DNA of 38,026 nt from Arthrobacter wenxiniae (GTDB lineage Bacteria > Actinomycetota > Actinomycetes > Actinomycetales > Micrococcaceae), in NCBI RefSeq assembly GCF_013376105.1, contig NZ_JAAMFM010000038.1, forward strand, positions 1 to 38,026, read 5' to 3'. Shown here one piece after another: positions 1,709 through 37,204 of this stretch. Each line of letters starts with the position of its first letter. Position 1 is the stretch's first letter. Position numbers and translations under genes: made by a program. The notes under the pieces are model-generated. The model had not been told where the DNA came from. It worked only from the letters and a program-made list of their open reading frames with translations, and made no database searches.

Positions 1709-2053
1709 ACTCCCCTTTTACTTCCCCTTTTCAATCTAGAACTACGCCAATGCACGACATGCCACAGCCTTCGGAACCAACGAAGTACCGCCAAAACACG
1801 CCGATTTTGGCAGTCAACGACACCATGCAAAAGCCAGATGACTAGATTCTCTTGGCCGTCGGTTCGAGTCCGACCCGGGGCACCAATGTGGCCCTGACCT
1901 GCGGTTATGTCCCGCAGAGGCAGCATATTTCAGGCCAACTCCCCTTTTACTCCCCCAATTCAGCGAAAGATTCTTCCGATTTGACTCCCCCTTTTGCGCA
2001 GGACGGACTTCCTCTTTTCAACGCACGGACGCCGAGGCCGCGAGATTCCACGG
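1709..2053 (+). repeat. att-like module 1 (tRNA 3' remnant with arm repeats)
   Basis: The core starts at GATTCTC (1845) and contains a complete tRNA T-arm (GTCGG, loop TTCGAGT, CCGAC), then acceptor strand CCGGGGC, discriminator A and CCA (to about 1884). Upstream, ACTCCCCTTTT at 1709 and ACTTCCCCTTTT at 1720 form a tandem arm pair exactly 136 bp before the core. Downstream, CCCTGACCTGCGGTT (1892) and more arm repeats occur at 1938 (ACTCCCCTTTT), 1949, 1984 and 2007. GATTCCACGG at 2044 also recurs in the other modules. Relative to modules 2 and 3 the T-stem has a paired change (C to T, G to A) that keeps the stem intact. There is no D-arm or anticodon arm, so this is a remnant, not a tRNA gene. 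Confidence 0.8.
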
Positions 2054-2276
2054 ATTTGACACTCCTGGACGAGTGAGATTTGGAGCCGGGAGCGTTCGCC
2101 CTCCGAGCCCGGCGTTACGAAGTTGGTCGTGGATCCTTCGATGGCCGCGTCAGATTCATCTCACTGGAATCGTAAGTCAGGAATGGATTCGATCCTGATT
2201 CGAAGCTCATGGAGATCGTTGCAGCCTCCAACAACCACCCCGACCGCAGCGACTGAGAGCCCCAGCGCTTCTCCCC

Positions 2277-2450
2277 CTGGCAACGCCGCTCGTCAAAGTT
2301 GGCGAGCTCCACGGCGCCGCCGTTGCGTACACGCGCTCCTATGAGCTCGTTGCCTGGTATGACGACGACGGAGCCTACCGGCTCGAATGGTTCCCTGCAG
2401 TCCAAGTCAACCGCCTGGAGAAAAAGGACTGGCACGGCAAATACTCATAA
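2277..2450 (+). CDS. Small hypothetical ORF without a standard start (57 aa)
   Basis: An open frame ending at TAA 2448-2450 has a good coding third-base pattern and a plausible protein (VKVGELHGAAVAYTRSYELV, then an acidic-aromatic stretch and LEKKDWHGKYS). No ATG, GTG or TTG lies at a sensible place; CTG at 2277 is the most likely start if the gene is alive. It may instead be the 3' part of a truncated gene at the edge of island A. A strong hairpin follows at 2481. Family not recognised. Confidence 0.35.
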   Translation: MATPLVKVGELHGAAVAYTRSYELVAWYDDDGAYRLEWFPAVQVNRLEKKDWHGKYS

Positions 2451-2480
2451 CCGACTGCCGACCGCCGCCCCTTAAAAGGC

Positions 2481-2521
2481 GGGTGCCGCCGTCGTACGGT
2501 ATACGTTCGACGGCGGCACCC
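2481..2521 (+). terminator. Strong hairpin terminator
   Basis: A perfect 14-bp stem (GGGTGCCGCCGTCG at 2481-2494 paired with CGACGGCGGCACCC at 2508-2521) with a 13-base loop. It stands 30 bp after the stop of the small + strand frame and also beyond the 3' end of the minus-strand isomerase operon, so it could stop transcription from either side. No long T-run follows. Confidence 0.65.
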
Positions 2522-2840
2522 CCTTACGAGATCGGCCCGGCACCCGCCTCGGCTTGTTCAACCGAAACGTAATTCGTCTCCTGGCCCGATGCACCCCAGA
2601 CCAATAGCAGCAATGAAATATGCCAATGCTGCTCGCCATTGTTTGGGCGTCTGATCGACATCCTCCGCGCGAACTCCGCACAGCTCTGCATGCGTGGGTG
2701 CGTCGTTGTTTCCGCAATTGTGTGCCGGGCTGCTTACTGCGAGGTGCACCGGTGGAAACTTCTTGCAGGTGGAGTTGACGCTTCAAGTGCACAAGGGTGG
2801 CAAGTTTTGGGCGGGAGCGAGGCTGGCGATCGCATAGAGG
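2522..2840. other. Intergenic stretch, no supported gene
   Basis: Between the hairpin and the 3' end of the isomerase gene. A minus-strand frame around 2558-2749 has moderately coding-like residues but no ribosome site or known family, so it is not called. Confidence 0.45.
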
Positions 2841-3890
2841 CTAGAGAGATGTCCGGGATCGTGCTCCGGAGGTTGAGGACACCGAATGCTCCGGCCCTGG
2901 CATCGGCGGCCTGCACCAGATGAAGTCCATGGAGCCGCCCGCCAACACGCGTCCCGCACCGAACGGAACCAGGAGCGTGTCACCGGCGGCGACGGCCAAA
3001 CGCTGGCCATCGGCAGTTTCGAGGCTCCCCTCCCCCACCGTCACAACAATGACGCCGAACCCAGCGTCGAGCTCGATCCGCCCGGAAGCTGTCAGGCGTT
3101 CGACCCGGAAGAACACTTCACTGCCGGCTGCAAGGGTCGACGCTCCGGCCCGCGTTATCAGCGCACCGATCTTGGCTTCGGAGCGACCCCGGTGATCGAT
3201 GGCTGACAGAGCGGTCCTAAAACCCAATCCCAAGTGTCCTTTCGAGGTGCCGTCCAGAGCGTATCCGTCCCATTCCAGCAGGATAGACAAGTCCTCCGGC
3301 TCCTGGACCTCGACCAGGAAGACGCCTTCGCCGATGGCGTGGGGCATTCCCGGCGGCACAAAAACACTGTCGCCGGGGAAAACTTCGATCGCATGCATGG
3401 CGTCCAGCATCGCCGAAGTGTCCTGCGTCCTGACCCATTCGGCAAGCTCGTAAGCAAGCACGTCATGCCGGAATCCGAGGTGGACGATGCCGCCTTCCAG
3501 GACCAGCCACGCTTCCGCCTTGCCGTGGTGCCGCCCCAGATGCGTGGCGGCAAAGTGCCGCGTCGGGTGGAGATGGACGGGCAGGCGCTGGCCGGCGTCG
3601 AGCATCTTCACCAATACCATTGTGTCCGCACCAAAGGCGATCACGTGCTCCTCACCCAGCCAGTGGACGGGGTCCTCAGCCACAGCATCCCGGAGGGATT
3701 GACCACCGGCCACACGACTCAAGCCAAGGGATGCTTCCCCGAAAATGGTTGTCGTCGAACCCACCCAGTCCTCGGGAACATGGCTGCCTGAGGCCGCAGC
3801 ACCTTTCCCTGCCCTGAAGGCCCTGATCTTGGCCCCGCCGCGATAGAACCGGTTGGCGGGCTGGTTGCCGGACAGCCGCAATATGGACAT
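2841..3890 (-). CDS. manA: Class I phosphomannose-isomerase-like enzyme
   Basis: A 349-residue cupin-fold protein of the type I mannose-6-phosphate isomerase family, which interconverts an aldose phosphate and a ketose phosphate in the cytosol with zinc. Likely metal ligands are H106 and H108 (in VHLHPT), E126 (in KAEAW) and H184 (in GMPHAIGEG), in the family order. The second cupin half (about 220-330) is present. The ATG at 3890 is 10 bp after the DeoR gene and AGGAG lies in that gap, so the two form one transcript. The context (sugar importer, kinase, aldolase) suggests isomerisation of the imported sugar rather than cell-wall mannose supply. The true substrate is unknown. Confidence 0.85.
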   Translation of the reverse strand: MSILRLSGNQPANRFYRGGAKIRAFRAGKGAAASGSHVPEDWVGSTTTIFGEASLGLSRVAGGQSLRDAVAEDPVHWLGEEHVIAFGADTMVLVKMLDAGQRLPVHLHPTRHFAATHLGRHHGKAEAWLVLEGGIVHLGFRHDVLAYELAEWVRTQDTSAMLDAMHAIEVFPGDSVFVPPGMPHAIGEGVFLVEVQEPEDLSILLEWDGYALDGTSKGHLGLGFRTALSAIDHRGRSEAKIGALITRAGASTLAAGSEVFFRVERLTASGRIELDAGFGVIVVTVGEGSLETADGQRLAVAAGDTLLVPFGAGRVLAGGSMDFIWCRPPMPGPEHSVSSTSGARSRTSL

Positions 3891-3900
3891 GCGCCGGCTC

Positions 3901-4743
3901 CTAGCTGGCCACCGCGGGTGGATACATGACTTCGACCTCGTTGGCTACCAGCAACGCGGCAATCTCATCCGGAGGCGCACAGTCAGTGACGAAGTAGTCC
4001 GCTCGGCCCAGTTCGGCCACCTGCGCAAACAGTCGCCGGCCGAACTTGGAGGAATCGGCCAGGAAGGCCACCCGGGACGCGTTCGCCATCATCTCACTCA
4101 TCATGACAGCCTCGGCGACGTTACTGGTGGAGTAACCGCCCTCAACTGAGACGGCGCCCACAGCCAGCAGCGCCAGATCGCACTGGACGCCGAGTTCCTT
4201 CCCCCCAATGGCTGCCTGGAAACTCACAGGCCCAATAGTCGCCTGGGCCACCTGGTGATAGGTCCCGCCAAAAACGTACAGGTCGCGGTAAGCCTTGGAG
4301 GACAGCTCCGCAGGAAGACGCAGGCTGTTCGTGGCCACCGTGAGCCCGCGGCACTCACCCATGTGGCGAGCCACGGCTAGGTTGGTCGTTCCTGCGTTAA
4401 TCATGACGACGGAGTCGTCCTGGATCAGAGTGGCGGCCAAGGCACCTATGGTTTCCTTGGCAGACGCCTGCAGGCGCAGGCGCACGTCAATGCCGGTATC
4501 GGCCTGCGGTAGCGAGGACAGGCTGACGGCGCCGCCATGAGTGCGGATGAGGACGCCGTCGCGGTCCAAGCGGTCAAGGTCTCGGCGGATGGTGTCGGTG
4601 GATACATCCAGGCGCGCAGCCAGTTCGGCTACAGTCACTTCCCCGGCTTCCTGCACGTAGGCCGCCAGCACGGCCTTGCGCCCCGCCGGCAGGTGGCGGG
4701 TTGATCCATCTCGGTCTGTAGCGGACGCCATGTTCGTAGTCAT
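3901..4743 (-). CDS. DeoR/GlpR-family transcriptional regulator
   Basis: About 280 residues. The N-terminal DeoR helix-turn-helix reads GEVTVAELAARLDVSTDTIRRDLDRL followed by the family signature GVLIRTHGGAV. The C-terminal part is the sugar-phosphate sensing DeoRC fold (INAGTTNLAVARHM, then FGGTYHQ). It lies upstream of, and probably cotranscribed with, the isomerase gene, and is divergent from the ABC-aldolase-kinase operon that it probably represses until a phosphorylated sugar is bound. Starts are ambiguous (TTG 4749, ATG 4743, ATG 4731). None has a clear ribosome site, so 4743 is a choice. Confidence 0.9.
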   Translation of the reverse strand: MTTNMASATDRDGSTRHLPAGRKAVLAAYVQEAGEVTVAELAARLDVSTDTIRRDLDRLDRDGVLIRTHGGAVSLSSLPQADTGIDVRLRLQASAKETIGALAATLIQDDSVVMINAGTTNLAVARHMGECRGLTVATNSLRLPAELSSKAYRDLYVFGGTYHQVAQATIGPVSFQAAIGGKELGVQCDLALLAVGAVSVEGGYSTSNVAEAVMMSEMMANASRVAFLADSSKFGRRLFAQVAELGRADYFVTDCAPPDEIAALLVANEVEVMYPPAVAS

Positions 4744-4760
4744 AAGCAATTATTACAACT

Positions 4761-4806
4761 TTTTGCGGAATTTTGCTTGACGTCTGCTGTTTTTTGCAGA
4801 TATGGT
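4761..4806 (+). promoter_or_regulatory. Divergent control region: phased TTTTGC repeats and a sigma-70-type promoter
   Basis: TTTTGC occurs at 4761, 4771 and 4792, spaced 10 and 21 bp, so all three face the same side of the helix. They overlap a promoter for the ABC operon, TTGACG (4777-4782), an 18-bp spacer and TATGGT (4801-4806). Their position between divergent genes makes them candidate operator half-sites for the adjacent DeoR protein. Binding is inferred. Confidence 0.5.
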
Positions 4807-4873
4807 CGAGAGAATCGTGCATCAGGACGCATAAATGGGCGTATATCAGCACGTCTGAGATGGGAGTGGCAAA

Positions 4874-6157
4874 ATGGGCAACGATGCTCTGTCAAGGCGA
4901 AATGTCCTTGGATACTTTGGAATGGCGGCCGCGGTCGCGATGACGGCAAGCTGTGGCACGGCCAATGCGGGCAAGTCTGCTGATGGAACGGTCACCCTGG
5001 AATTCGCCCAGTGGTGGGAGCCCGAATTGCCCAAGGGCTCGCTGCGCACTTTGATGGACACCTTTGAGGCGAAGAACCCCGGCATCAAGGTCAAGCTCCT
5101 GAGCGGGCCCTACGCCTCCACGAAGGAACAGGTCATCGCCGGTGCGGCTGCAGGCACCATGTCTGACGTCGTCGGCCTGGACGGCGCCTGGATCAACGAC
5201 TTCTCCAAGCAGGGCTCGCTCGCCGATCTGTCAGCCCTGATGAAGGAATCCAAGTACGACCAAAGCCAGCTGGCCAGCCAGGTCAAGATCGACGGCACCA
5301 CGCTGATGATCCCGGCCGTGAACTTCGTCTACCCGATGTTCACCAACGACGATCTGCTGGCCAAGGCCGGGGTGTCCAAGCCCCCGTCAACTCGGAGCGA
5401 ATTCACCGCGGCCGCCGTCGCCATTAGCAAGGTCGACTCCAACGTCAAGGGCTGGGTGCTCCCGTTGTCCCAGGAAGCCCCGAACGGCATCCAAAACGAT
5501 GTCATGTCCTGGGTGTGGGCCTCCGGCGGCAGCATGCTCAAGGACGGCAAGCCCGATCTCACGAACGACGCCGTCCATAGCGCCGTCAACTTTGTCCAGG
5601 ATCTTTGGGACAAGAAGGTAGTGTCCCCCGGCGCCCTGACCATGAAGGAACAGGACAAGGTGGAGGAGTTCACAAACGCCCGGGTGGGTATGATGATCGA
5701 CTCCCTGGCCCACATCAAGCTGATCAGGGAGAACAACCCGAAGCTGAAGTTCAGCATCTCCGCCGTTCCCGCCGTCGACGGCTTCACGGGGAAGAGGGGC
5801 ATCCCCTACGCAGCCTGGGGCATCGGCATTGCGGACAACTCGCCCAACAAGGCCGAGGCTTGGAAGCTGGTGGACTTCCTGATGAGCGAGGAAACCAACG
5901 CCAAGCTGTCCTCGCTGTCCAATTCCTTCCCCGGCAACACCAAGGCTGTGCCCGACTTTGTGGACAGCGATGCCTTGTTCAAGAAGGCATTCGAGATCTA
6001 CAAGGGCGGCTACCCGGCCAACGAGTTCGTGGGCCTGCCCGTGGCGGAGCAGCTGATGCGCAGCTTCGACGAGGAACTCCAAAAGACCCTCAGCGGCCAG
6101 CAGAACGTCGACAAACTGCTCGCCAACGCCCAAGCCACCTGGATGAAATCGTTCTAG
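4874..6157 (+). CDS. ABC sugar transporter, substrate-binding lipoprotein (family 1)
   Basis: A 427-residue extracellular solute-binding protein of the MalE/family 1 type. The N-terminus has a twin-arginine motif (SRRNVL, residues 7-12), a hydrophobic stretch and a lipobox ending TASC, so it is probably exported folded by Tat and anchored as a lipoprotein. The mature part has the usual family pattern (FAQWWEPELP, VVGLDGAWINDF, then a helical C-terminal lobe). It is the first gene of the operon with two permeases, an aldolase and a kinase. GGGAG lies just before the ATG. No ATPase subunit is encoded here, so a shared MsiK-type ATPase elsewhere probably powers import. Substrate unknown. Confidence 0.92.
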   Translation: MGNDALSRRNVLGYFGMAAAVAMTASCGTANAGKSADGTVTLEFAQWWEPELPKGSLRTLMDTFEAKNPGIKVKLLSGPYASTKEQVIAGAAAGTMSDVVGLDGAWINDFSKQGSLADLSALMKESKYDQSQLASQVKIDGTTLMIPAVNFVYPMFTNDDLLAKAGVSKPPSTRSEFTAAAVAISKVDSNVKGWVLPLSQEAPNGIQNDVMSWVWASGGSMLKDGKPDLTNDAVHSAVNFVQDLWDKKVVSPGALTMKEQDKVEEFTNARVGMMIDSLAHIKLIRENNPKLKFSISAVPAVDGFTGKRGIPYAAWGIGIADNSPNKAEAWKLVDFLMSEETNAKLSSLSNSFPGNTKAVPDFVDSDALFKKAFEIYKGGYPANEFVGLPVAEQLMRSFDEELQKTLSGQQNVDKLLANAQATWMKSF

Positions 6158-6169
6158 GAGCCCTCCCCC

Positions 6170-7129
6170 ATGAAATCCACTCTCAAAGATCCCGAGCCGC
6201 TGCTGGAAACGCAGTGGCCGGCTGACCCGGTCAAACCAAGGAAGGCCGGCTGGGGCGGCCTGAAGCGCCGGCTGGCCCCGTACGGGTTCGTTTCGCCTAC
6301 CGTCATCCTGATGTTCGTGCTCATGCTGGTGCCGATCGTCATGGTCATCGGGTATTCGTTCATGAACAACGTCATCATGACCAAGCACCCGAAGTTCGTG
6401 GGCCTGGACAACTACGTCACGATCCTGACGGATAGCGTGTTCCACACAGCCCTGGCCAATACTTTGGCCTTCACCTTCGCCAGCGTGGCGGCCCACATCG
6501 TGCTGGGCCTGCTGTTCGCCATGCTGCTGAACTCCCCGCTCCTGGGCACTCGTTTCAAGGCCCTGTTCCGAGCGGTCTATGTGCTCCCTTGGCTGTTCAC
6601 GGTGGCCATCATCGCTGTGCTGTGGCGGCTGCTCCTTGACCCCAACGGCGTCATCAACTTCCTGCTGATGAATGCCGGCATCATCGATTCCAAGATTGAA
6701 TGGCTGTCCTCCCCGGGCACGGCACTGTTCGCGGTCACGTTCATCAACATCTGGGCGGGGTACCCGTTCTACATGGTGAGCATCCTGGCCGGCCTGCAGG
6801 GCATCCCCAAGGACCTGTACGAGGCGGCCACCGTCGACGGCGCCAACAACTTCCAGAGGTTCCTGCATGTCACACTGCCCCAGCTCAAGCCGATCATCAT
6901 CAGCATGGCGATGCTCGATCTGATCTGGACCTCGCAACAGTTCGCATTGATCTGGATGACCACCGGCGGCGGACCCATCAACGTCACCGAGATGCTCAGC
7001 ACCTACACCTACAAGTTGGCGTTCAGCCAGTACCAGTTCTCGCTGGCCTCCGCTGCCGCCGTCGTCATTCTTCTGCTGTCGATGATCCTGGCCTTCTTCT
7101 ACATCCGGCACCAGAAGGCGAGGGATTGA
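6170..7129 (+). CDS. ABC sugar transporter permease (MalF type)
   Basis: A 319-residue membrane protein with about six transmembrane segments and a cytosolic N-terminal tail. The EAA loop that contacts the ATPase is EAATVDGANNFQRFLHVTLP. The ribosome site AGGAG overlaps the stop of the binding-protein gene. It pairs with the next permease to form the channel of a carbohydrate uptake (CUT1) transporter. Confidence 0.93.
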   Translation: MKSTLKDPEPLLETQWPADPVKPRKAGWGGLKRRLAPYGFVSPTVILMFVLMLVPIVMVIGYSFMNNVIMTKHPKFVGLDNYVTILTDSVFHTALANTLAFTFASVAAHIVLGLLFAMLLNSPLLGTRFKALFRAVYVLPWLFTVAIIAVLWRLLLDPNGVINFLLMNAGIIDSKIEWLSSPGTALFAVTFINIWAGYPFYMVSILAGLQGIPKDLYEAATVDGANNFQRFLHVTLPQLKPIIISMAMLDLIWTSQQFALIWMTTGGGPINVTEMLSTYTYKLAFSQYQFSLASAAAVVILLLSMILAFFYIRHQKARD

Positions 7130-7130
7130 G

Positions 7131-7976
7131 ATGACCATGACGAAGGCGCAGAAGAGGGTGGCCAGCAAGGCCGGCATCATCATCGCCCTGCTCACGGGGG
7201 CCGTATTCGCCGCGTTCCCGGTGTTCTGGATGGCGGTCAGCTCATTCAAGGCAAACTCCGAAATCTTCGAATTCCCGCCCCGGATCATCACGGAGAACTT
7301 CTCCCTGACGGCGTACACCACCATCCTGACGGACCCCGCCAAGGTGCGGTTCTTCATCAACAGCTATGTCGTGTCGATCGGGGTGACCATCCTGACGCTG
7401 ATCGTGGCCATCCTGGCCGCCTATGCGTTCAGCCGCTACCAATTCAAGGGCAAACACCCGCTGAACATGATCATCGTCAGCGTCCAGGCGGTGCCGCCCA
7501 TCACGCTGCTCATCCCGTTCTTCGGCCTGATGGTGGTGCTGCGGCTCTACAACACGTACCAGGGCCTGATCCTGACGTACATGGTGTTCACGCTCCCCTA
7601 CGCCATCATCATGATGACCGGCTACTTCAACACCATCCCCAAGGAGCTCGACGAGGCCGCCAAAGTGGATGGGGCAAGCTCGTTCGCGGCCCTGTGGCGG
7701 GTCCTGGTACCGGTGTCCATCCCGGGCATCGTGTCGGTGGGCATCTACACGTTCATGATCGCGTGGAATGAATACCTGTTCGCGCTGACCCTGACCCGTT
7801 CCGTGGACATGCGGACCGTGCCCGTGGGCATCCAATTGCTCATGGGCCAGCACTCCTACCAGTGGAACGAAATGATGGCCATGAGCATCCTCGGCTGCAT
7901 CCCCGTTCTGATCTTCTTCCTGTTCTTCCAGCGGTACTTCATCGGCGGGCTGACCGCCGGCGGAGTCAAGAGTTAA
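7131..7976 (+). CDS. ABC sugar transporter permease (MalG type)
   Basis: A 281-residue inner-membrane permease with six predicted segments and the EAA motif DEAAKVDGASSFAALWRVLV. The ATG lies one base after the TGA of the previous gene (ATTGAGATG), implying translational coupling. It ends with the long C-terminal segment and ...GGLTAGGVKS tail usual for CUT1 MalG-type subunits. Together with the preceding MalF-type protein it forms the translocation pore. Confidence 0.93.
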   Translation: MTMTKAQKRVASKAGIIIALLTGAVFAAFPVFWMAVSSFKANSEIFEFPPRIITENFSLTAYTTILTDPAKVRFFINSYVVSIGVTILTLIVAILAAYAFSRYQFKGKHPLNMIIVSVQAVPPITLLIPFFGLMVVLRLYNTYQGLILTYMVFTLPYAIIMMTGYFNTIPKELDEAAKVDGASSFAALWRVLVPVSIPGIVSVGIYTFMIAWNEYLFALTLTRSVDMRTVPVGIQLLMGQHSYQWNEMMAMSILGCIPVLIFFLFFQRYFIGGLTAGGVKS

Positions 7977-8021
7977 CCCCCAATTTTCCATTAGCCCAAC
8001 AACAATCCCAGGAGAATCACC

Positions 8022-8885
8022 ATGTTGATGAACGGCATCGATCTGCTCGACGTAGCAAACAAGAACAACTTCGCCGTCCCGGCGTTTAACGTCAGCGACT
8101 ACGCCATGATGAACGGTCTATTTGAAGTCAGTGAGGAGAAGGACTCACCGCTCATCGTCGCCATCCACCCGGACGAACTCAGCCACATCGGCGTCGACAT
8201 GCTGCCGGCCATCATCGCCAGGGCGCACCGGTCCACCGTCCCCGTCACCATCCACCTGGACCACGGCGCCAGCTACGAGCAAGTGCTGCTGGCCATCAAG
8301 AGCGGCTTCACCTCCGTCATGATCGACGGCTCCCTGCTCCCCTTCGATGAGAATGTGGCCATCACCAAGAAGGTGGTGGACGCTGCACACGCAGTGGGCA
8401 TCTCCGTCGAGGGCGAGCTGGGCACCATTGGGAAGACTGACGGCAACGCCGAGGCCGGCACCGACACCATCATCTACACGGACCCCGACGACGCCGTACG
8501 GTTCATTGCAGAAACCGGCGTGGACAGTCTGGCCATCGCCATCGGCACCTGCCACGGTCTGTACCCGCAGGGTGTCACCCCTGAGCTGAAACTCGACTTG
8601 CTCCAGCAGATTCAAGAGAAGGTCTGCATCCCTCTGGTGCTGCACGGCGGCTCCAACAACCCGGACGAGGAGATCGGCAAGTCGGTGTCTCTGGGCGTCA
8701 ACAAGATCAACATCTCCAGCGATATAAAGACCGCCTATCATGACAAGATGCGCGAGATTCTGGCCACAGATGCCTCGGTGCGCGAGCCGAACACCATCCA
8801 GCCGCCTTGCATCGCCGCCATGAAAGTGACGGCCGCGCAGAAGATCGACCTGTTCAACGCCGCCGGCAAGGCAGCGCTTTACTAA
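8022..8885 (+). CDS. Class II ketose-bisphosphate aldolase (Fba/GatY/KbaY type)
   Basis: A 287-residue zinc-dependent aldolase that cleaves a ketose 1,6-bisphosphate to dihydroxyacetone phosphate and an aldehyde. Visible key residues are D80 (catalytic) and H81 (zinc) in IHLDHGAS, H179 (zinc) in GTCHGLYP and H208 (zinc) in VLHGGSN. The length and the KINISSDIKTAYH block fit the short fructose/tagatose-bisphosphate group. CAGGAG precedes the ATG at 8022; a second ATG follows two codons later. It sits between the importer and an ADP-dependent kinase homologue, so the product of that kinase is the likely substrate. Fructose versus tagatose stereochemistry cannot be told by eye. Confidence 0.9.
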   Translation: MLMNGIDLLDVANKNNFAVPAFNVSDYAMMNGLFEVSEEKDSPLIVAIHPDELSHIGVDMLPAIIARAHRSTVPVTIHLDHGASYEQVLLAIKSGFTSVMIDGSLLPFDENVAITKKVVDAAHAVGISVEGELGTIGKTDGNAEAGTDTIIYTDPDDAVRFIAETGVDSLAIAIGTCHGLYPQGVTPELKLDLLQQIQEKVCIPLVLHGGSNNPDEEIGKSVSLGVNKINISSDIKTAYHDKMREILATDASVREPNTIQPPCIAAMKVTAAQKIDLFNAAGKAALY

Positions 8886-8904
8886 GAGAAGGAACCGTTC
8901 CACT

Positions 8905-10962: not shown

Positions 10963-11209
10963 CCCACCATCCAACCACAACTCATGCACCCCCCTTCGGC
11001 CCGTCATGTTCCCCTCCATTGGCGGCCGAATCGACGCTTCGCTTCCCGACCGTAGCGCCCCCCCACGTGCCACTACCGGGACGAGTCGTCCGTGTTCTGC
11101 CGGGCGGCCTGATTTGCCAGCAAGGCGAGGGCTTTCTCACTCGCATCGCGAATCCGATGCAACGCACCAACAACGCTGATGCTGGCAAACAGTGGCTTGG
11201 ACGGCGGGC

Positions 11210-12307: not shown

Positions 12308-12321
12308 GCGGGCATCCTTTG

Positions 12322-12372: not shown

Positions 12373-12379
12373 ACATATT

Positions 12380-27166: not shown

Positions 27167-27193
27167 GGTATCTCCAGGTTTCTGCTGTCTAGT

Positions 27194-27245: not shown

Positions 27246-27287
27246 GGTCGTGACTTGGTAGGTGGTGACCAGCGGATGCTGCAGGGC

Positions 27288-29618: not shown

Positions 29619-29676
29619 TGCTATCAGGCTCCTTCAATGGTCAGTGCTGGAAGGTTGTGGGATGGTGTGCTCATGG

Positions 29677-31803
29677 TCAGTCCTTGAGGAACCAAACGGC
29701 ACCTTGCGGCGTCGGTTCAAGACGCCACGACGGCTCCACCAGGAAGGTGGTGTTTTCCGTGGTCACGATGGCTGGGCCGTGGATGACGTGCTGGTGGTGC
29801 AACGACTCCTCGTCGTAGACCGGCGTGTCAACGGCACCGTCGATCTTCACGAAATGCACCTGTCGAGTGCCCACTGGCTTCGGCATGGTCCTGTCATGGC
29901 CGGATTCGATTGAATCGAATTTCACCACGTCCCCATCCACGTAAGAGGACACTCGAACGGTCTGCGCCCTGATGCCGGCCTCCGGTGCCTGGCTGCCGAC
30001 GCCATAGCGTTGGCCGTAGATGTCCGAGAAGGTGCGGATGAGGTGAAGAACGTCGGCGACGCCGTTGACTCGGTTGATGTCGAAGACGACAGCCGTGGTG
30101 ACCAGCTGATTGCCGTAGCGCAGATCCATTTCCAGGCTGTGACGGATGTCGGCGGGGTTGTAACCCTGCCGGACCAGGTCCCCTTTGCCCCTGGCCTCCA
30201 GATCCTCGATGACCTGGTTCAGCTCGTCGTAGGTGTTGTACAGGCTGCGGTCCGTGGGGTTGTAAAGGACCACGTGGGAGCCGCGCTCATGGATGTGAAG
30301 CGGCTTCATGTTGCCTGCACCACACGCCGAAAATACCGAGGAAAAGGGCGGGGCAAGGATCCGTTTGATTCCGGCGTGATCGGCGATCCCGCAAGCGTGG
30401 AGCGGGCCGTTGCCGCCGTAGGCCAGCATGGTGAAGTCTTCCGGCAAGTACCCGCGCACGCGCAGTTCCTTCGACATGCCGATGGCCATCTGCTCATCCA
30501 CGGCGTTCTTGACGATCTTGGCCACCTCAATGGTGTCCAAATCCAGCTCATCGGAAAGGACCTCATCGAGGGCGTACACGGAGCGCTTCTTGTTCAACGT
30601 GATGAAGCCGTTGGCGTAGTTGTCCGGGTCCAGGTAGCCCAGCACCAAGTCCGCGTCGGTGACCGTCGGGCGCAGCCCGCCTCGGTCATAACATGCCGGC
30701 CCTGGATCCGAACCCGCCGATTCTGGCCCAATCTGCACCGAATGGTGGATCCTGTCATAACTGGCGATCGAGCCACCCCCGGCGCCGAGTGTCAGCAGGT
30801 GGATCATCGGCACAGACACCAGCCAGCGGCCGATGGTCGGCTGGAAGTCGTAGTGCTTTACACCGCCCTCGGGGACAAGTCCAATGTCAAAGGACGTTCC
30901 GCCCATGTCCGTGGAGATCACGTTCCCCAACCCGGTGCTGTCGGCCAGGTGCTGGGCTGCACCTACGCCGGCAATTGGGCCGGAGTGAATGGTCTGCAGT
31001 GCGTCGGTGGAATTCGACTGCGCCATGCCGCCAGAGTTGTGGATGACCAGCATGGGCTTGTCATAACCGGAACCCCTCAGGTTATTGGACAGCTGCCCCA
31101 GCGCGTGGAACATGATCTCGTGCAGAAAAGCGTCAACTATGGTTGAGGTCGCTCGAACATATTCGCCTTTCCGCCCCGAAACCTGGCTGCCCAGCAGAAC
31201 CGGGATGGCGCCCAGTTCATGAGCGGGGTACTCGTCCAGAATGATGTCCAGAATCTGCTGTTCGTGGATCGGGTTTTCGGTGGAGTTGACCAACGAAACG
31301 ACCAGCGCTTCCGCCCCGGCGTCGACCAATTCGCGGACCTGCATGCGAACGTCTTCTTCCATCAGTCCCACCACGACTTTGCCCGCAGAGTTGATTCTTT
31401 CCTTCACTGAGCGAATCAGCGCACGGGGAACCAGCGGATCGGGGCGTGTGGCGTCGGGCATGTTCTGCTGCTTGGACGGGTCCAGCCCTTCACCGTAGCC
31501 CCGACCGCGAGACAGGGGGATGGTGTCCTCAAAACCGTGGGTGACCAGGGCGCCGACACGCGGACCCTTGCCTTCAATGAGGGCATTGGTACCCAGCGTT
31601 GTGGCGTAACGTACCGAATCAACCTCGGCCAGCACCAGGTCTCGGTCCAGGCCGGCCCGAGAGCAGGCAAGATCCAGGGCTTCGTTAAATCCTTGGGCCA
31701 GATTGTGGTGGGTTGTCAGCGCTTTCGCTTCGACATACACATCATCCCAGGCGAAAAAACAGTCGGTAAATGTACCGCCGATGTCAACGGAAATTCGTTT
31801 CAT
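29677..31803 (-). CDS. acxA: Acetone carboxylase beta subunit (HyuA family)
   Basis: A 708-residue HyuA/ASKHA-fold ATPase that phosphorylates acetone and bicarbonate. Phosphate motifs are SVDIGGTFTDCF (residues 5-16), STDMGGTSFDIG (second phosphate loop) and MLAYGGNGPLHACG. The blocks LGAGGGSIASYD and GPESAGSDPGPACYDRGG are typical of the hydantoinase/oxoprolinase A group. The ATG at 31803 is 15 bp after acxC, so the genes are one operon. Gene order here is paralogue-acxC-acxA-acxB, unlike the acxABC order of well-studied proteobacteria. Confidence 0.9.
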   Translation of the reverse strand: MKRISVDIGGTFTDCFFAWDDVYVEAKALTTHHNLAQGFNEALDLACSRAGLDRDLVLAEVDSVRYATTLGTNALIEGKGPRVGALVTHGFEDTIPLSRGRGYGEGLDPSKQQNMPDATRPDPLVPRALIRSVKERINSAGKVVVGLMEEDVRMQVRELVDAGAEALVVSLVNSTENPIHEQQILDIILDEYPAHELGAIPVLLGSQVSGRKGEYVRATSTIVDAFLHEIMFHALGQLSNNLRGSGYDKPMLVIHNSGGMAQSNSTDALQTIHSGPIAGVGAAQHLADSTGLGNVISTDMGGTSFDIGLVPEGGVKHYDFQPTIGRWLVSVPMIHLLTLGAGGGSIASYDRIHHSVQIGPESAGSDPGPACYDRGGLRPTVTDADLVLGYLDPDNYANGFITLNKKRSVYALDEVLSDELDLDTIEVAKIVKNAVDEQMAIGMSKELRVRGYLPEDFTMLAYGGNGPLHACGIADHAGIKRILAPPFSSVFSACGAGNMKPLHIHERGSHVVLYNPTDRSLYNTYDELNQVIEDLEARGKGDLVRQGYNPADIRHSLEMDLRYGNQLVTTAVVFDINRVNGVADVLHLIRTFSDIYGQRYGVGSQAPEAGIRAQTVRVSSYVDGDVVKFDSIESGHDRTMPKPVGTRQVHFVKIDGAVDTPVYDEESLHHQHVIHGPAIVTTENTTFLVEPSWRLEPTPQGAVWFLKD

Positions 31804-31818
31804 GACCAGGGGTTTCCT

Positions 31819-32274
31819 TTAGCTGTGCGAATGGGGGGCTGACGCGGAAAGACTGTTGTAGGAACCAAGGGCCGGGCTGAAATCGGCAACTGCCTCTTCA
31901 CCTGGTCCGTAGTTGATGACGGACGCAGGGTCCGTTCCACGTTCGGTCCACTTTTCGCGGAGCGAGTCAATGTCCCACAGCATGTCCACTGTCGGCGGGT
32001 GTCCCGGCGGCACGTACTCGGTCTCCAACTGGGTCCCACACCCGGGACAGTAGAACTCCAGGATCCGGCAAAACGTGGGATCCGGCGCAAACGTGAATTC
32101 GTATTTCTCCGGGTCCAAAATGGACTGGTGGATGTCCCTCGGGTCCCTGTCGTAGACGAGGGTCCCTTCCTTGTAGTTGCCTCTCGCATCGCCGAGGTCG
32201 TGGTCGCAGACCTTGCACGTCCAGCGCTCAGTGTCGAGGTCGATGATCAGATATTCCGTCATTGGAATGCGCAT
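31819..32274 (-). CDS. acxC: Acetone carboxylase gamma subunit
   Basis: A 151-residue protein from ATG 32274 (AAGGTGAG about 9 bp before it); the longer frame to 32313 adds a poor N-terminus. Two CxxC pairs, CKVC near residue 20 and CPGC near 74, form a likely zinc site. ILEFYCPGCGTQLETEYVPPGHP and WDIDSLREKW are family landmarks. It completes the three-subunit acetone carboxylase. It lies between the HyuA-like paralogue (42 bp) and acxA (15 bp). Confidence 0.88.
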   Translation of the reverse strand: MRIPMTEYLIIDLDTERWTCKVCDHDLGDARGNYKEGTLVYDRDPRDIHQSILDPEKYEFTFAPDPTFCRILEFYCPGCGTQLETEYVPPGHPPTVDMLWDIDSLREKWTERGTDPASVINYGPGEEAVADFSPALGSYNSLSASAPHSHS

Positions 32275-32316
32275 GCTTTGTCTCACCTTTTCTTCTAACA
32301 AATAGTGGTGCAATGA

Positions 32317-34245
32317 TCAGTTCTCAATGGTGTCCGTGAGCATGAGATCCCCGGCCACCGTCACGTCAAACTTCCATCCCTGCGGCACCCTGGCAGTGAA
32401 GTAGGGGCCCTCAACGATGGCCGGTCCCGCCCCCGCCGCTCCCGCTTTTTGGGTGTCCAGGTCGAAAACGGGAACCTCATCGACCTGCGCGGCCGTGGAA
32501 CGTACGTTGCGGGTTGAGGAAGAGACAGCAGGCGATTTCTCCGTCGCTTCGGCCTGCGGAATACTCGCGTGAGGCAGTTCGAATCGGGCCGTCAGGGTCA
32601 GCATCGCATGATGGGCGCTGGCGCTGGGCTGCGGATCAGATTCGGAGTAGGAATCTTCGGACAACAGCTGACCCTCAGCGTCCTCCTGAACCACACTCCA
32701 CTCGAGACGACACTCGCCAATCTCGTGGCCTTCCTGGAACATGTCCCGAGTGGCCCGCTCCCGCAGCCGCGTCTTGGTCGCGGCAAACTCATTGGCGGAC
32801 AACCCGGCGATGTTGGCCTCATACGTCTGCGCGATGTCCGAAAACCCAATCCCAAAGGCTGAGAACACCGCTGCCATCCTCGGCACGAGCACCCGACGAA
32901 CACCGGCTATCCGGGCAGCACCACAAGCGCTCATGGGGCCGGCACCTCCGAAAGCGGCTACCGTCGTGGTCTCCGCATCGACAACATCATCGGCGAATGA
33001 CGTTGACATGCGCTCGAAGTATGCAGCCTCCATTCTGATCAGAGCCTCTTCAAGTGATATCCCCAACGGCCCGGCAATAACCTCGGTGATCACCGCCCGT
33101 GACCGCTGGGCATCAAGGCTGAATCCGCCGTCAAGATAGGTGTCAGGGTCTAGGACACCCAGCAAAAGATTGACGTCGGTGATGGTTGCCTGTTTGCCGC
33201 CAAAACCAAAACACGCCGGCCCCGGAGCAGCCCCGACGCTTTCCGGCCCCACCGTAATAACGCCGTTGCGCAGGGCAATGACGGAACTACCGCCCACACC
33301 GGAGGAGTGAACGTTGCTCATCGCAAATGAAACCGGGACGCCCCGAATCGAACCCCGGCGGTCTGTCGAAATTGTCGAATTCTTCACCGACCCCACATCG
33401 GTTGTGGTCCCGCCAACGTCGATCATCAAGACATGTTCAAGCCCATAGGCGCTCGAGAGAGCCTTCGTCCCCTCAAGACCACCACGCGGACCCGACGAGT
33501 ATGTCTTCAGTGCAACCGACTTCGCCACTCGCGACGAGGCTCCGTCGTTGCGGTAAATCAGCAGCGGGTTCTTGACCTTGTGGTCGCGGAGCCGGTGCTC
33601 GGCGTTGTAGAGGAACCGCTCCATCGTCGGATGCAGGAAAGAGTTGATAATCCCGGACCACACACGACGACCGCGCACAGCATCAGGAGTGAACTCCCAA
33701 GTGAAAAGAATCGGGACCGAACCCAGGAGATGACGCGGAAACTTCCGCAATAAAACCCCCTTAACGGTGCGCTCCTTCTCCCTGTCCGCCATCGCGATGA
33801 CCAATCGAGCAGCACCGTCAGTGGTCAGTCGGTTGACCTGCCTGACAATGTCTTGGGACAGTTCCTCCAGATCCCGATCCGCATCAATCACCGCAACGCG
33901 CGAACCAACAAGATCATCAAACAACTCAGCCGACGCATCCCCCGTCCGCAGCTCCTCCGCCAGCGTCGGGCTATCAGTGAGAACGCCAATCTGCGGGCCC
34001 TTACGCTCCACCAGCGCATTGGTGCCCTGCGTAGTCGAATACCGGATATGTCGCGTCGAATGCAAAAGCCGCGGAAGATCTTCTTCACCGAAAATGTCCG
34101 TAGAGGCCTTGGCCATCCCATCAAAGAGACACTGCGACAAGTCAAAGGGCGTGGTGAGGGTCTTCGTAAACGAGAACTCCTCACCATCCCAGACACAGAT
34201 GTCAGTCAGCGTCCCACCGTTGTCGATATTAATGAGCCGTTCCAT
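32317..34245 (-). CDS. HyuA-like paralogue (second hydantoinase/oxoprolinase A subunit) in the acx operon
   Basis: A 642-residue protein from ATG 34245, preceded by AAAGGAG; the in-frame ATG at 34320 lies in non-homologous DNA. It keeps the HyuA phosphate motifs LINIDNGGTLTDICVWDG (Asn-Gly-Gly where AcxA has Gly-Gly-Thr), MIDVGGTTTDVGSV and VAAFGGAGPMSACG. SSGVGGSSVIALRNG and GPESVGAAPGPACFGFGG match the same blocks in AcxA. It is first in the operon. No separate HyuB partner is present. It may be an alternative or activating subunit for the carboxylase. Its function is not established here. Confidence 0.85.
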   Translation of the reverse strand: MERLINIDNGGTLTDICVWDGEEFSFTKTLTTPFDLSQCLFDGMAKASTDIFGEEDLPRLLHSTRHIRYSTTQGTNALVERKGPQIGVLTDSPTLAEELRTGDASAELFDDLVGSRVAVIDADRDLEELSQDIVRQVNRLTTDGAARLVIAMADREKERTVKGVLLRKFPRHLLGSVPILFTWEFTPDAVRGRRVWSGIINSFLHPTMERFLYNAEHRLRDHKVKNPLLIYRNDGASSRVAKSVALKTYSSGPRGGLEGTKALSSAYGLEHVLMIDVGGTTTDVGSVKNSTISTDRRGSIRGVPVSFAMSNVHSSGVGGSSVIALRNGVITVGPESVGAAPGPACFGFGGKQATITDVNLLLGVLDPDTYLDGGFSLDAQRSRAVITEVIAGPLGISLEEALIRMEAAYFERMSTSFADDVVDAETTTVAAFGGAGPMSACGAARIAGVRRVLVPRMAAVFSAFGIGFSDIAQTYEANIAGLSANEFAATKTRLRERATRDMFQEGHEIGECRLEWSVVQEDAEGQLLSEDSYSESDPQPSASAHHAMLTLTARFELPHASIPQAEATEKSPAVSSSTRNVRSTAAQVDEVPVFDLDTQKAGAAGAGPAIVEGPYFTARVPQGWKFDVTVAGDLMLTDTIEN

Positions 34246-34369
34246 TGATACTCCTTTGTATGCTGCGGCAAGGTGACACGAGTCGAATGCCTCAGCGACT
34301 AAAAGTGATGCAAGCCACATTGAGGACTGGTGCCAGTTTCGCCCAGCACGCAGGGTGGCCGGCTACTAC

Positions 34370-34414
34370 CCACCCGGGTGGACTATTCAGGGCAAAATAC
34401 GCCCCCCGGGTAGG
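34370..34414 (-). promoter_or_regulatory. Paired CCCGGG palindromes upstream of the acx operon
   Basis: CCACCCGGGTGG at 34370-34381 is a perfect 12-bp palindrome. A degenerate copy, CCCCCCGGGTAGG, is at 34402-34414, with centres 32 bp (three helical turns) apart. They lie 125-170 bp upstream of the first acx gene and are candidate binding sites for the MalT-like activator or another regulator. Confidence 0.4.
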
Positions 34415-35183
34415 CGGACGAGCAGCGGATCCGTGCGTCGACCCGTCACTCACGCAGAGGCACTCCCGCAAAGCTGTGTTTCATCAGTTAATTTCCGACC
34501 ATTTGAGGGCTAAGTATCCTGCTGTCAACAGCACCTTAATGGGCCGGAAATTTGGGTAGCCAAGTATGCGCCAAGGCCACTTACATAGCCCTGCGCCGAT
34601 CGCCCATTTGCATCCTGCAAGGCTCGCCAGACCAGGCCACGCCACGCCTCAGAAGCGGGCATGAAGCCCTTGGTCACGTGGCTCTTCTGGGATGCAGCCG
34701 GAAGGGAGACATGACATCGAAATTCAGCGAAGGCACTCGATCGGAAGGGCCCGTTTCTTTCGGCCCTGGTTCAATACGGCACGGTTCGTGATGCCGACCG
34801 TTTCGTTCTTGAAACAGCATCTTTCAGTTCGCACTCTGGCTACCCAAACAACCGGATTTCATGTCGTCAACGGGCCTGCTACGGTCAGGCGCCCAGCACG
34901 GTAGACCGTTTGCGGTTCTGGGTGGATCCAAGCCGTCCAAGCAGTTGGTGGCCTTCTCGAGCCCAGGCTTAACTATCGAGTCCCGCATATCGCTCTTCAA
35001 CCCCGCCAACGCATCGTTGGCCTTCAATTCAAAGCGGTCAGGTGCGCATACCTCATTCGCTGCCTGCTGAGCATGTCCCGGAGGCAGAATACCTCCAGGG
35101 CCGTGCAGCCGGTAGCGACGCTGGCTCCCCTACGTACGCGCAATGGCCTCCGCGCTTGAATCACGCCGTGGTACACAGGAACC
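34415..35183. other. Gene-free stretch between acx and the Fic gene
   Basis: No supported gene. TGCTGTCAACAGCA (34520-34533) is an inverted repeat and, read on the minus strand, contains TTGACA. AATTTCCG (34490) and CGGAAATT (34545) form a wider inverted pair. The several 60-85 codon frames on both strands lack ribosome sites and known families. Confidence 0.4.
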
Positions 35184-35239
35184 TGGGAAGACAAGGTGTC
35201 TATTTTCCCAGAATCACATAATATTGGGAAAACAAGGCT
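35184..35239 (+). promoter_or_regulatory. Candidate operator before the Fic gene
   Basis: TGGGAAGACAAGG (35184) and TGGGAAAACAAGG (35225) are direct repeats 41 bp (four turns) apart. TTTTCCCA (35203-35210) and TGGGAAAA (35225-35232) form an 8-bp inverted repeat with a 14-bp spacer. The three TGGGAA units directly precede the ribosome site (GGAGG) of the Fic gene, as an autoregulatory site would. Confidence 0.45.
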
Positions 35240-35264
35240 GGTGGATTCCAATGAGGAGGCCGGC

Positions 35265-36476
35265 ATGAACCACCCACGCAAATCAACAGACCAGGTTCAA
35301 GACCCTTGGCCAGCCATAGGTTCCGAGGAAGTCCAATGGGCCGGCGCACCCGACGCCAGCGCTTCCCGGCGTCAGCGACTGATGGCCCGGGGCCCCTACC
35401 AAGCTGCCGTGGTGCCGCCCATTGCCCACAGCCAACCTTTCATCAGTAGTCCCGTGGCAGCATTAGCCGAAGAGGCAACCATCGACATGGTTCGCTTCGA
35501 CCGCGACCTCGGTGAAGATGCTGCACCCTTCGCAGCACTTTTACTACGCAGCGAGTCCGCGGCCAGCTCGGAAATTGAGGATCTCACCGCTGGCGCCAAA
35601 AGGATTGCGCTGGCGCAACTTGGGGATCACTCGAGCACGAACGCATCGCTGATTGCCTCCAATGTCACCGCAATGCGAGCAGCCATCGACCTCTCAGACG
35701 ACATCAGTCTGGACAATATCTTGTCCATGCACCTGGCCCTGCTGGAAGCGACTCATCCCGAAATCGCCGGCCGACTGCGCACCCAGGCTGTCTGGATCGG
35801 CGGAAAATCGCCCCACTCGGCAAGCTTTGTCCCTCCCCGGCATGAAGCCGTCAAAGCATCCATGGCCGATCTGGTGGCGTTCATCCAGCGCGACGATATT
35901 CCCGTCCTGACCCAGGCGGCAATCGCCCATGCACAGTTCGAGACGATCCACCCCTTCCCAGACGGCAATGGCCGTACCGGTCGGGCCATCGTCAGCGCCC
36001 TGCTGCGAAACAAGGGCGTCACCGAGAAGGTCACCATTCCCCTCTCCTCGGGCCTGCTGGCGAACACGAAATCCTACTTTGAAGCGCTGGGCTCGTACCA
36101 GGGCGGCAACCCGGAAGCGATAACCGAGATGTTCGCCGAGTCAACTTTTTCGGCCACGGACAACGGCAGGGCGTTGGCCGCAAGTATCCGCGATGCCCAG
36201 ACAGGCATTTATGCGGCACTGCCGCACAATCCAAGTGAAAGCCTGCGTTGGACGGTTGACCTCTTGATGCGTGAGCCGGCACTGACGGCTGAGATGCTGA
36301 TGGAGCTCACAGGCCAGTCCTCAAGCTCGGCCTATCGAAACATCTCGACTCTGGAATCCCTCGGCGCGCTCAAGCCAAGCAGTCACATCAAGGGACGCAA
36401 AGTATGGATAGCGCCGCCCGTCATCGAGGCCCTGGACGAGTTCGCGCTTCGCGCAGGCAAACGAGTCCGCGGGTAA
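35265..36476 (+). CDS. Fic-family AMPylase-type protein
   Basis: A 403-residue protein from ATG 35265, with GAGGAGG before it. The Fic active-site motif HPFPDGNGRTGR is at 229-240 and complete (catalytic His 229). An N-terminal Fic_N region carries SSEIED (101-106), close to the inhibitory (S/T)xxxE(G/N) motif of class II Fic proteins but with Asp instead of Gly/Asn. A C-terminal winged helix (about 325-375, LTAEMLMELTGQSSSSAYRNISTLESLGAL) suggests DNA binding and autoregulation. Such proteins transfer AMP to a target protein; the target is unknown. It lies just inside the right end of island B and could stabilise the island. Confidence 0.9.
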   Translation: MNHPRKSTDQVQDPWPAIGSEEVQWAGAPDASASRRQRLMARGPYQAAVVPPIAHSQPFISSPVAALAEEATIDMVRFDRDLGEDAAPFAALLLRSESAASSEIEDLTAGAKRIALAQLGDHSSTNASLIASNVTAMRAAIDLSDDISLDNILSMHLALLEATHPEIAGRLRTQAVWIGGKSPHSASFVPPRHEAVKASMADLVAFIQRDDIPVLTQAAIAHAQFETIHPFPDGNGRTGRAIVSALLRNKGVTEKVTIPLSSGLLANTKSYFEALGSYQGGNPEAITEMFAESTFSATDNGRALAASIRDAQTGIYAALPHNPSESLRWTVDLLMREPALTAEMLMELTGQSSSSAYRNISTLESLGALKPSSHIKGRKVWIAPPVIEALDEFALRAGKRVRG

Positions 36477-36777
36477 CCTGTTGATTCTCCCTACCGTCAG
36501 AACATTGCTTACACACATGGAGTGACCCATAGCGGCCATCAAAACCTCCCGTAGGGTGCGAGCCATGAAAGCGCTCATTGCTTGAACTGAAATGACCGCG
36601 GCAATACCCGTGGAATCACCAAAAACCGCGCACCAGCCTCCAATCCAACCAACCCTCAGGCGTAAGCTGGTAATCACGGACGGTAGCTGGCACTGCCTCG
36701 CGGAGGATCACTGATGAACCTGCTTTCACAGATTTCGCACTCAAGCCCCGACAACGTCAAAGGGGCTCAGCAGTGCC
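36477..36777. other. Gene-free stretch before att module 3
   Basis: No gene, RNA or clear terminator seen. A minus-strand frame (36321-36677) overlaps the Fic gene and is not convincing. Confidence 0.45.
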
Positions 36778-37204
36778 ACTCATCTTTTACCCATCTAATT
36801 CAACCGAAAACCACGGCAATCACTGACATGTCGTAGCCGCCAGAAAAGACGAAACTGCCCGAAAACACGCGAACTTTGATAGCCAGCAGCGCCGCTCAGC
36901 ATCCAGATAGTGAGATTCTCTTGGCCGCCGGTTCGAGTCCGGCCCGGGGCACAAAATGTGGCTCTGACCTGCGGTTTTATTGTTTTGGCCGGGTGCGTCG
37001 AGGGGCCAAATCACGGTTTACTCACGTTATTGAACGAAAAGATCACGAAATTGGCTCCAACTCGGCCGAATCAGGTTCAATTGGCTCCCCTATTTCTCGA
37101 CCATTGGACGGAAAAGACCCTCGATTCCGCGGTTGTTCTTGGCTTGGACGATCCGCAAAAGTGACTGCCAAGAATTGGCCCTCCGTTCGACGTACTCCCG
37201 GCAC
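36778..37204 (+). repeat. att-like module 3 (tRNA 3' remnant with arm repeats)
   Basis: Upstream arm pair ACTCATCTTTT (36778) and ACCCATCTAATT (36789), then the core at GATTCTC (36914), again exactly 136 bp away. The T-arm (GCCGG, TTCGAGT, CCGGC) and acceptor strand CCGGGGC equal module 2, but the CCA has decayed to CACAAAA. CTCTGACCTGCGGTT follows at 36962, arm-like TTTACTCACGTTATT near 37017 and GGCTCCCCTATTTC near 37083. GATTCCGCGGTT (37123), GAATTGGCC (37172) and CCCGGCAC (37197) match module 2 in order and spacing. The right-hand arms imply another unit further right. Confidence 0.8.

Follow-up and report, generated by a model that had tools for sequence, protein, structure and literature searches.

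Tandem islands at the 3' half of tRNA-Arg(UCU) in Arthrobacter, probably built by accretion, and the dialects of their arm repeats

Introduction

How does a single contig come to carry the 3' half of one tRNA gene three times, each time at the same distance from a short tandem repeat? The question is raised by a 38,026-nucleotide stretch of Arthrobacter wenxiniae DNA (RefSeq assembly GCF_013376105.1, contig NZ_JAAMFM010000038.1), hereafter the window, which is the entire contig C32 of an 88-contig draft assembly. A sequence-only reading of the window had taken the three repeats for attachment (att) modules left by serial site-specific integration at one tRNA locus. Here, we compare these modules with those of related genomes. 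We conclude that the window is very probably part of an accretion array of conjugative elements and integrase-less passengers, assembled at the 3' half of tRNA-Arg(UCU). The analysis goes beyond the earlier reading in three respects: the arm repeats of the modules occur in distinct dialects, these dialects are linked to integrase clades, and the islands can be divided into helpers and passengers.

Results

Three att modules derived from tRNA-Arg(UCU)

Re-examination of the window bears out the layout first read from the sequence. Left arm repeats start at 1709, 18268 and 36778, and in all three modules the core, GATTCTCTTGG, starts 136 bp later, at 1845, 18404 and 36914. The modules are homologous, as had been claimed: a search of the same genome with module 1 retrieves module 2 (E = 1.0e-32) and module 3 (E = 8.6e-23). 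A profile hidden Markov model (HMM) of the module also finds all three at E <= 3.2e-71; they are among its seeds, so that the DNA search is the fair measure of homology. The spacing is a general property of these modules, with 137-139 bp between the second arm base and TCTCTTGG in 50 of the 57 modules in which it is measurable (33 of 90 are not measurable). The repeated TGACCTGCGGTT block downstream of the core is real as well. It forms the left half of an inverted repeat in many modules and not in others; the hairpin to the right of the core is strong in many modules and absent in others, and we assign it no function.

The core covers the T-arm and the 3' strand of the acceptor stem, and terminates with CCA in modules 1 and 2 and with CAA in module 3. 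It is indeed a tRNA 3' fragment, contained in an intact tRNA-Arg(UCU) gene of the same genome (C56:561-636); the 3' part of this gene, tRNA-Arg(TCT) in DNA letters, is the module 2 core. An intact gene with the 5' acceptor strand GCCCCGG had been predicted to the left of the window. The gene exists, its acceptor strand is GCCTCGG, and it lies on contig C56, whose joining to the window is not established. Within the window, ARAGORN found no complete tRNA and Rfam gave nothing at gathering scores, the latter being expected of a tRNA 3' half. Window bases 2-202 are 99% identical, in inverted orientation, to the 201 bases that end C56, and C56 enters this insertion sequence (IS)-like end about 360 bp downstream of tRNA-Arg. 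The presence of IS-like sequence at both contig edges is suggestive only: C56 may be joined to the window, or there may be two separate copies. No target duplication just outside the shared end was obvious by eye.

The search with module 1 yielded ten matches in the genome, namely the query, modules 2 and 3, and matches on C40, C4, C56, C19, C14, C67 and C31. The HMM places modules on six contigs beyond C32 (C4, C14, C19, C40, C56 and C67), and the C31 match was rejected, being merely the T-arm of a tRNA-Leu. On C67, a module remnant lies beside a citrate-lyase-beta-like gene (named by eye). We discarded the possibility that it marks the right end of the tRNA-Arg array, because its flank lies elsewhere in relatives (in genome G021, for example, 1.85 Mb against 2.80 Mb). 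Since this chromosomal place is unrelated to the tRNA-Arg locus, we regard C67 as a secondary integration site.

Arrays start at the tRNA gene across the genus

Modules were searched for in 58 genomes, including that of the window (G000); up to 12 candidates were scored in each, which makes the per-genome match counts lower bounds. Matches were obtained in 27 of them: every Arthrobacter genome (23), and four genomes outside the genus in which 28-37 bases of the tRNA-like core alone were matched. Some matches within the genus also scarcely exceed the tRNA (e.g., G018). On the fetched stretches, the HMM gave 107 hits, full and partial, in 18 genomes. They bound 67 closed intervals of more than 1.5 kb, with a median of 9.3 kb and a maximum of 65.7 kb; shorter intervals are excluded from the counts of closed islands. 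In 16 of the 23 genus genomes, ARAGORN places tRNA-Arg(UCU) at the first module (G000-G004, G006, G007, G010, G013, G014, G016, G017 and G019-G022). No tRNA-Arg was found in the fetched stretches of G005 and G012, and at some further sites no tRNA was found at the first module (e.g., G005, G017a, G002b and G020_34).

The geometry of the HMM hits agrees with the position of the modules in the arrays. Modules on the tRNA side begin at column 121 and have no left arms, interior modules mostly extend from column 2-4 to 263-311, and right-end modules from column 2 to 142-196. In G021, 12 module hits, some of them partial, span about 212 kb. The right end of this array is not fixed: about 360 kb from the tRNA, one part of the conserved right flank is matched at 77%, but this part also matches several other places in the genus, and no module follows the twelfth hit within the approximately 160 kb fetched.

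Other genomes show the locus with one island or none. G018 has tRNA-Arg(UCU) without arms beside it in a 3-kb locus, together with a hairpin flank. In G020, the right end of a 30-kb island continues into a G018-like flank: 86 bp match at 89.5%, 38 bp of them belonging to the tRNA half, and a further 38 bp match at 87%. The single island at the tRNA of G007 is followed by a weaker match to the G018 flank (83 bp at 78%, tRNA half included). Finally, G003, with an array of about 124 kb, and G017, with one 3.7-kb island at the tRNA, have a common right flank (84.5% over 2.6 kb). Hence, longer assemblies of relatives support serial site-specific integration at one tRNA locus, and the proposed chain of at least four units, two of them complete, is correct for the window.

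Of 92 cores, 76 have a completely paired T-stem, and there are four main paired alleles (GCCGG, GTGGG, GCTGG and GTCGG). Among the 76 non-tRNA cores counted, 63 have an acceptor half that pairs 7/7 with GCCTCGG. Most islands would thus supply a 3' half able to serve the tRNA.

The two ends of an island carry the same arm dialect

The arm repeats vary in a short block, which defines three dialects, TCACGT, TCATCT and TCCCC. In the window, island A (between modules 1 and 2) is flanked by TCCCC at both ends and island B (between modules 2 and 3) by TCATCT at both ends, while the next island opens with TCACGT. The dialect classifier was written after viewing a first set of stretches and applied unchanged to a second set fetched later. 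Of the 70 consecutive module pairs, 14 that lacked a classification at one or both ends were excluded. Both ends of an island have the same dialect in 37 of 47 cases in the first set (18.6 expected) and in 6 of 9 in the second (3.0 expected, p = 0.042). Taken together, 43 of 56 islands match (21.3 expected), a value reached in none of 100,000 global shuffles. When dialects were shuffled within contigs, the mean was 31.2 and 4 of 100,000 shuffles reached 43.

Unlike the two ends of an island, the arms that face each other across one core share no dialect beyond expectation. They agree in 18 of 42 cases in the first set (14.8 expected, p = 0.18) and in 5 of 14 in the second, which gives 23 of 56 overall (19.3 expected; 8535 of 50,000 shuffles).

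Two dialects go with two integrase clades

One integrase was used as query against the 23 genus genomes at E <= 1e-80. Matches were found in 14 of them, in some only relatives of 38-45% identity. In the scan for the integrase, 11 of 13 loci came from Arthrobacter records. In the integrase tree, from which a 61-amino-acid row (G020_34) is excluded, the eight rows from TCACGT islands group in a single clade (support 100/100). The four rows from TCCCC islands fall in the other clade of seven rows (100/97). Its remaining members are G010_122, an incomplete gene of unknown dialect, and the two fragments of a broken gene in G002, which belongs to an island with left arms of the TCACGT and right arms of the TCCCC dialect. 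The G004_28 integrase is the sister of the TCCCC clade. That of G014 had appeared to be a separate type (60% identity to the query); this reflected partial coverage, and it groups with the TCACGT clade at 83-87%.

Six residues, R234, K277, H344, R347, H369 and Y379, are invariant in 12 integrase rows, and we take them to be the catalytic RKHRH set and tyrosine. A profile search against the PDB covers the catalytic part only (one integrase, one XerA). Within clades, identity is 87-94%. Between clades it rises from 49.5% for residues 1-75 to 66.6% for residues 76-185 and 80.3% for residues 186-399, as would be expected if the arms are read by the putative N-terminal arm-binding domain. Pfam gave no arm-domain match for the integrase. 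The AlphaFold model predicts three strands (25-30, 33-41 and 47-54) and a helix (57-69), at a low mean pLDDT (predicted local distance difference test) of 55.5. Three strands and a helix are the layout of Tn916-type arm-binding domains, as given in part of a study that also describes such domains as variable in general (PMC8138268).

In the island of G004_28, the left end is unreadable and the right arms are degenerate. On contig C19 of the window's genome, left arms are of the TCATCT dialect, and the relaxase there is 72% identical to that of G004_28 and about 50% to the others. From this likeness, a G004_28-type integrase is predicted to read TCATCT.

Related integrases also lie directly beside tRNA-Met (L176-L182) and tRNA-Thr (L126, on C18 of the window's genome) in other elements. 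At L176 and L182, integrase and tRNA are separated by a hairpin resembling the one to the right of the tRNA-Arg core. Three tandem tyrosine recombinases are found at L071 (contig C52 of G000) and just past the terminal module of G005; they resemble recombinase-in-trio elements.

Conjugative helpers and integrase-less passengers

The first island of G001 encodes a TrwC relaxase-helicase, a type IV secretion system (T4SS) coupling protein, a TrbL/VirB6 protein, an NlpC/P60 protein, ArdC, a sigma factor and the integrase, as well as MzaB/C/E-like defence genes. The G007 element has a VirB4-like ATPase, with VirB4 scores far below the NCBIfam cut-offs, and an SCO6880-family protein. By gene content, the first island of G001 and its relatives can be classed as putative integrative and conjugative elements (ICEs), with integrase, relaxase, coupling protein and VirB4 between att sites. 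Such genes are concentrated near the tRNA. Of the 13 closed islands next to the tRNA, 6 have a relaxase match and 7 an integrase match, versus 0 and 4, respectively, of the 54 others. Overall, 11 of 67 closed islands contain a trace of the integrase and 56 do not (tblastn, E <= 1e-20). Several copies are degraded: they are partial or split in G012b_100813, G002a and G014, reduced to a 61-amino-acid remnant in G020_34, and interrupted by an in-frame stop in the second copy of G021.

Modules 1-3 of the window match the att modules that flank conjugative islands in G001, G007, G010 and G021. A Pfam scan of 25 proteins from islands A and B gave no integrase, relaxase or conjugation match, and C32 has no PF00589 match and no match to the G001 relaxase or coupling protein. 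With ICE-family att flanks and none of these genes, islands A and B are candidate cis-mobilizable elements (CIMEs).

Sixteen island pairs share right-end segments of 1.3-4.6 kb, 81-98.5% identical and ending at the core (e.g., G001 and G005); the 1.75-kb right end of island B is 90% identical to that of a different island, in G012. The remainder of these islands is mostly different, which makes them mosaics. On the left, one pair alone shares at least 800 bp at 78% or more beyond the arms. Homologous exchange probably takes part in this reshuffling of island ends.

Gene content of the window

The IS-like end occupies 1..202 and the incomplete right-hand remainder of the preceding island 203..1708, both unassigned to a strand; the modules and islands that follow are given on the plus strand. 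Module 1 comprises left arms (1709..1736, dialect TCCCC) that form the right end of the preceding island, a core with T-stem allele GTCGG/CCGAC and CCA (1845..1885), and right arms (1938..2020, TCCCC) that form the left end of island A. In module 2, the left arms (18268..18294, TCCCC) close island A, the core (18404..18444) has CCA and the allele GCCGG/CCGGC, as does the tRNA gene of C56, and the right arms (18508..18589, TCATCT) open island B. Module 3 closes island B with its left arms (36778..36803, TCATCT), has a core ending in CAA (36914..36952), and opens the next island with its right arms (37011..37037, TCACGT).

Island A (1886..18403, about 16.5 kb) is complete and has a sugar-catabolism cargo. 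It encodes a cupin-domain protein with a weak match to the mannose-6-phosphate isomerase cupin domain (2841..3890, minus strand) and a DeoR-family regulator (3901..4749, minus), followed on the plus strand by an ABC sugar-type transporter with a solute-binding protein and two permeases (4874..7976), a class II aldolase (F_bP_aldolase, 8022..8885) and a carbohydrate kinase (ADP_PFK_GK match, 8905..10104). An AAA ATPase (11210..12307) and a LacI-family regulator (12570..13706) are on the minus strand. On the plus strand, a dihydrodipicolinate-synthase-family aldolase (13689..14693) and an MFS transporter (14809..16176) precede an IS110-family transposase just inside the right end (16610..17878).

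Island B (18445..36913, about 18.5 kb), also complete, has a ketone-carboxylase cargo. An IclR-family regulator (19430..20209, minus) is followed by 3-oxoacid CoA-transferase A and B and a thiolase (20394..23058, plus), a LuxR/MalT-type regulator (23534..26329, plus), and hydantoinase A/B-type carboxylase subunits with an acetone-carboxylase gamma subunit (27288..34320, minus). The latter set is acetophenone/acetone carboxylase-like, with NCBIfam scores under the curated cut-offs; together with the CoA-transferase and thiolase it could convert a ketone to acetyl-CoA. A Fic-domain protein (PADLOC SoFic match, 35196..36476, plus) lies just inside the right end, a position where other islands (C4, G017 and G021) have a 236-amino-acid protein; the G017 copy matches PD-T4-5 weakly.

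In the next island, a 71-codon open reading frame (ORF; 37442..37657, plus) has a start that resembles, by eye, that of a 1175-amino-acid protein from the right end of the conjugative island in G001. An ORF cut by the contig end (37703..38026, plus) has a weak helix-turn-helix match and is a transposase by appearance only.

Discussion

A model for the growth of the array

Module homology, anchoring at the tRNA, sites with one island or none, like dialects at the two ends of islands and the match of integrase clades to two dialects are all observed. They fit a model in which each incoming element would bring a core with arms to its left and right. Recombination by an arm-bound tyrosine integrase would take place within TCTCTTGG, which covers the anticodon 3' stem and the variable region, the position of strand exchange being inferred. 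The tRNA would thereby acquire the 3' half of the element, the earlier half and the islands behind it would shift to the right, and repeated insertions would produce the chain. The driver would be a conjugative element with TrwC relaxase, coupling protein, VirB4-like ATPase and integrase, in most cases beside the tRNA. Like islands A and B, most units would be passengers that keep end arms of a single dialect; they could be moved only by an integrase of the same dialect, acting in trans or from an adjacent conjugative element.

We tentatively take this one step further, with a little less than even confidence. Three mutually private pairs of integrase and arm dialect on one shared tRNA-Arg(UCU) target would make the locus an addressed, multi-channel store of islands, in which each helper would move the passengers of its own dialect and leave the others silent. 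Such a store would be the island-scale counterpart of an integron array, with the arm-binding domain of the integrase as the address reader.

Several points weigh against the accretion model. Movement is inferred, no excision, circular form or transfer having been observed, and the adjacency of C32 to the tRNA contig C56 is not proven. The window's own genome has no member of this integrase family at E <= 1e-80, the nearest being the 38% relative beside tRNA-Thr on C18; unless the gene lies in an assembly gap, the islands of this genome are therefore immobile now. No integrase is firmly assigned to TCATCT, the dialect of island B. Only one island end is readable for G012b_15099, G004_31, G013 and the second G021 copy, and, because arm-binding domains vary generally, low N-terminal identity is no proof of arm specificity. 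The second set of the dialect test is small (9), and 13 of the 56 classified islands have unlike ends, which module loss or recombination between islands may have left. A single pair of closed islands, the conjugative islands of G007 and G010, is covered over more than 50% in both members. The shared right-end segments could also be explained by homologous recombination.

Alternative explanations

How do other explanations fare against these data? Modules recur within one genome, as an interspersed repeat or a segmental duplication would, but a reading unrelated to integration is hardly conceivable. The sequence-only reading had itself named two outcomes that would speak against integration, modules unrelated to tRNA loci and a lack of genomes differing in the presence of an island. 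Neither is borne out: arrays begin at tRNA-Arg(UCU) in 16 genomes, modules at array ends are one-sided, and island contents are mostly non-homologous; G018 is empty, G007 and G020 have single islands with a G018-like flank behind them, and G003 and G017 differ in islands before a common flank. A more serious contender is decay in place, in which all units arrived complete with their own integrase, most lost the gene, and the passengers are fossils that never moved in trans. We lean against it while considering it possible. It accounts for the 5 of 11 integrase-bearing closed islands with partial, split, remnant or stop-containing copies, and the order of the arrays, with conjugative islands beside the tRNA and integrase-less ones mostly further off, is the one expected if older elements decay. 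However, the lack of any integrase trace in 56 of 67 closed islands contrasts with the fully paired T-stems of 76 of 92 cores, arms are readable at both facing ends in 56 of the 70 consecutive module pairs, and even short islands of 3.7 kb (G017b) and 3.8 kb (G012a) are armed at both ends.

Homologous recombination through modules and right-end genes, with no part for an integrase, might instead reshuffle islands between arrays. The 16 pairs with right-end segments ending at the core, the 90% match between island B and G012, and the 13 of 56 islands with unlike ends all agree with it. Yet homologous exchange alone predicts neither matched dialects at island ends nor a link between integrase clade and dialect, and left ends share little beyond the arms; as a full explanation, we judge it unlikely. 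Accretion of conjugative elements and integrase-less passengers is hence the reading we retain.

Relation to known systems

Accretion with integrase-less, att-bearing units is already known. Composite arrays of the staphylococcal cassette chromosome (SCC) at orfX are chains with recombinase-less units bounded by att, built with serine Ccr recombinases and with neither a tRNA nor arm sites. The Arthrobacter arrays resemble them in such units and differ in recombinase, tRNA and arms. In integrons, IntI acts with attC hairpins, whereas the sites described here are arm-core-arm modules on a tRNA 3' half; no dedicated integron search was made. In the sections consulted of work on Streptococcus, tandem ICE/CIME elements likewise lie at one gene 3' end, with att-keeping units devoid of integrase and conjugation genes and the least decayed elements nearest the target gene (PMC7563491). 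The composites reported there comprise 33 of two elements and 4 of three, unlike the Arthrobacter arrays, where as many as 12 module hits extend across about 212 kb (G021), and coexisting arm dialects matched at island ends were not found described in those sections (PMC7563491). Dehalococcoides ssrA islands also stand in numbers behind a single RNA gene, with repeats of the gene's 3' end as their boundaries, and have catabolic cargo; as far as the consulted portion goes, 15 of 31 have no integration module and cis-mobilisation was proposed (PMC3146451). Their target is tmRNA (ssrA) and their enzyme a serine recombinase (DsiB), in contrast to tyrosine integrase, arm repeats and tRNA-Arg in Arthrobacter (PMC3146451). 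Closer in phylum and target, actinobacterial ICEs (AICEs) are described, in a partly consulted source, in tandem at tRNA-Arg or tRNA-Lys, with two Frankia elements shown to excise singly and together (PMC3218068). Those tandems have two elements, unlike the relaxase/VirB4-type ICE with many integrase-less units in Arthrobacter (PMC3218068). The G001 and G007 elements carry TrwC, coupling protein and VirB4-like genes; translocation genes of the FtsK/TraB type (pSAM2-type AICE) were not searched for. The dialect code itself, that is, matched end arms together with the link to integrase clades, looks new: no description of either was found among the best-ranked papers of the literature searched.

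Long chains of islands are easily taken for passive leftovers. Here, the ends of the units bear a readable tag, and this tag tracks the integrase clade for two of three dialects, so that the pairing of helper and passenger becomes predictable. Matching end tags may decide which integrase moves an island, and the idea that arm-binding specificity is what lets different mobile elements share one target becomes testable. Since the units examined carry catabolic routes and defence genes, the array could supply much accessory function in a common soil genus.

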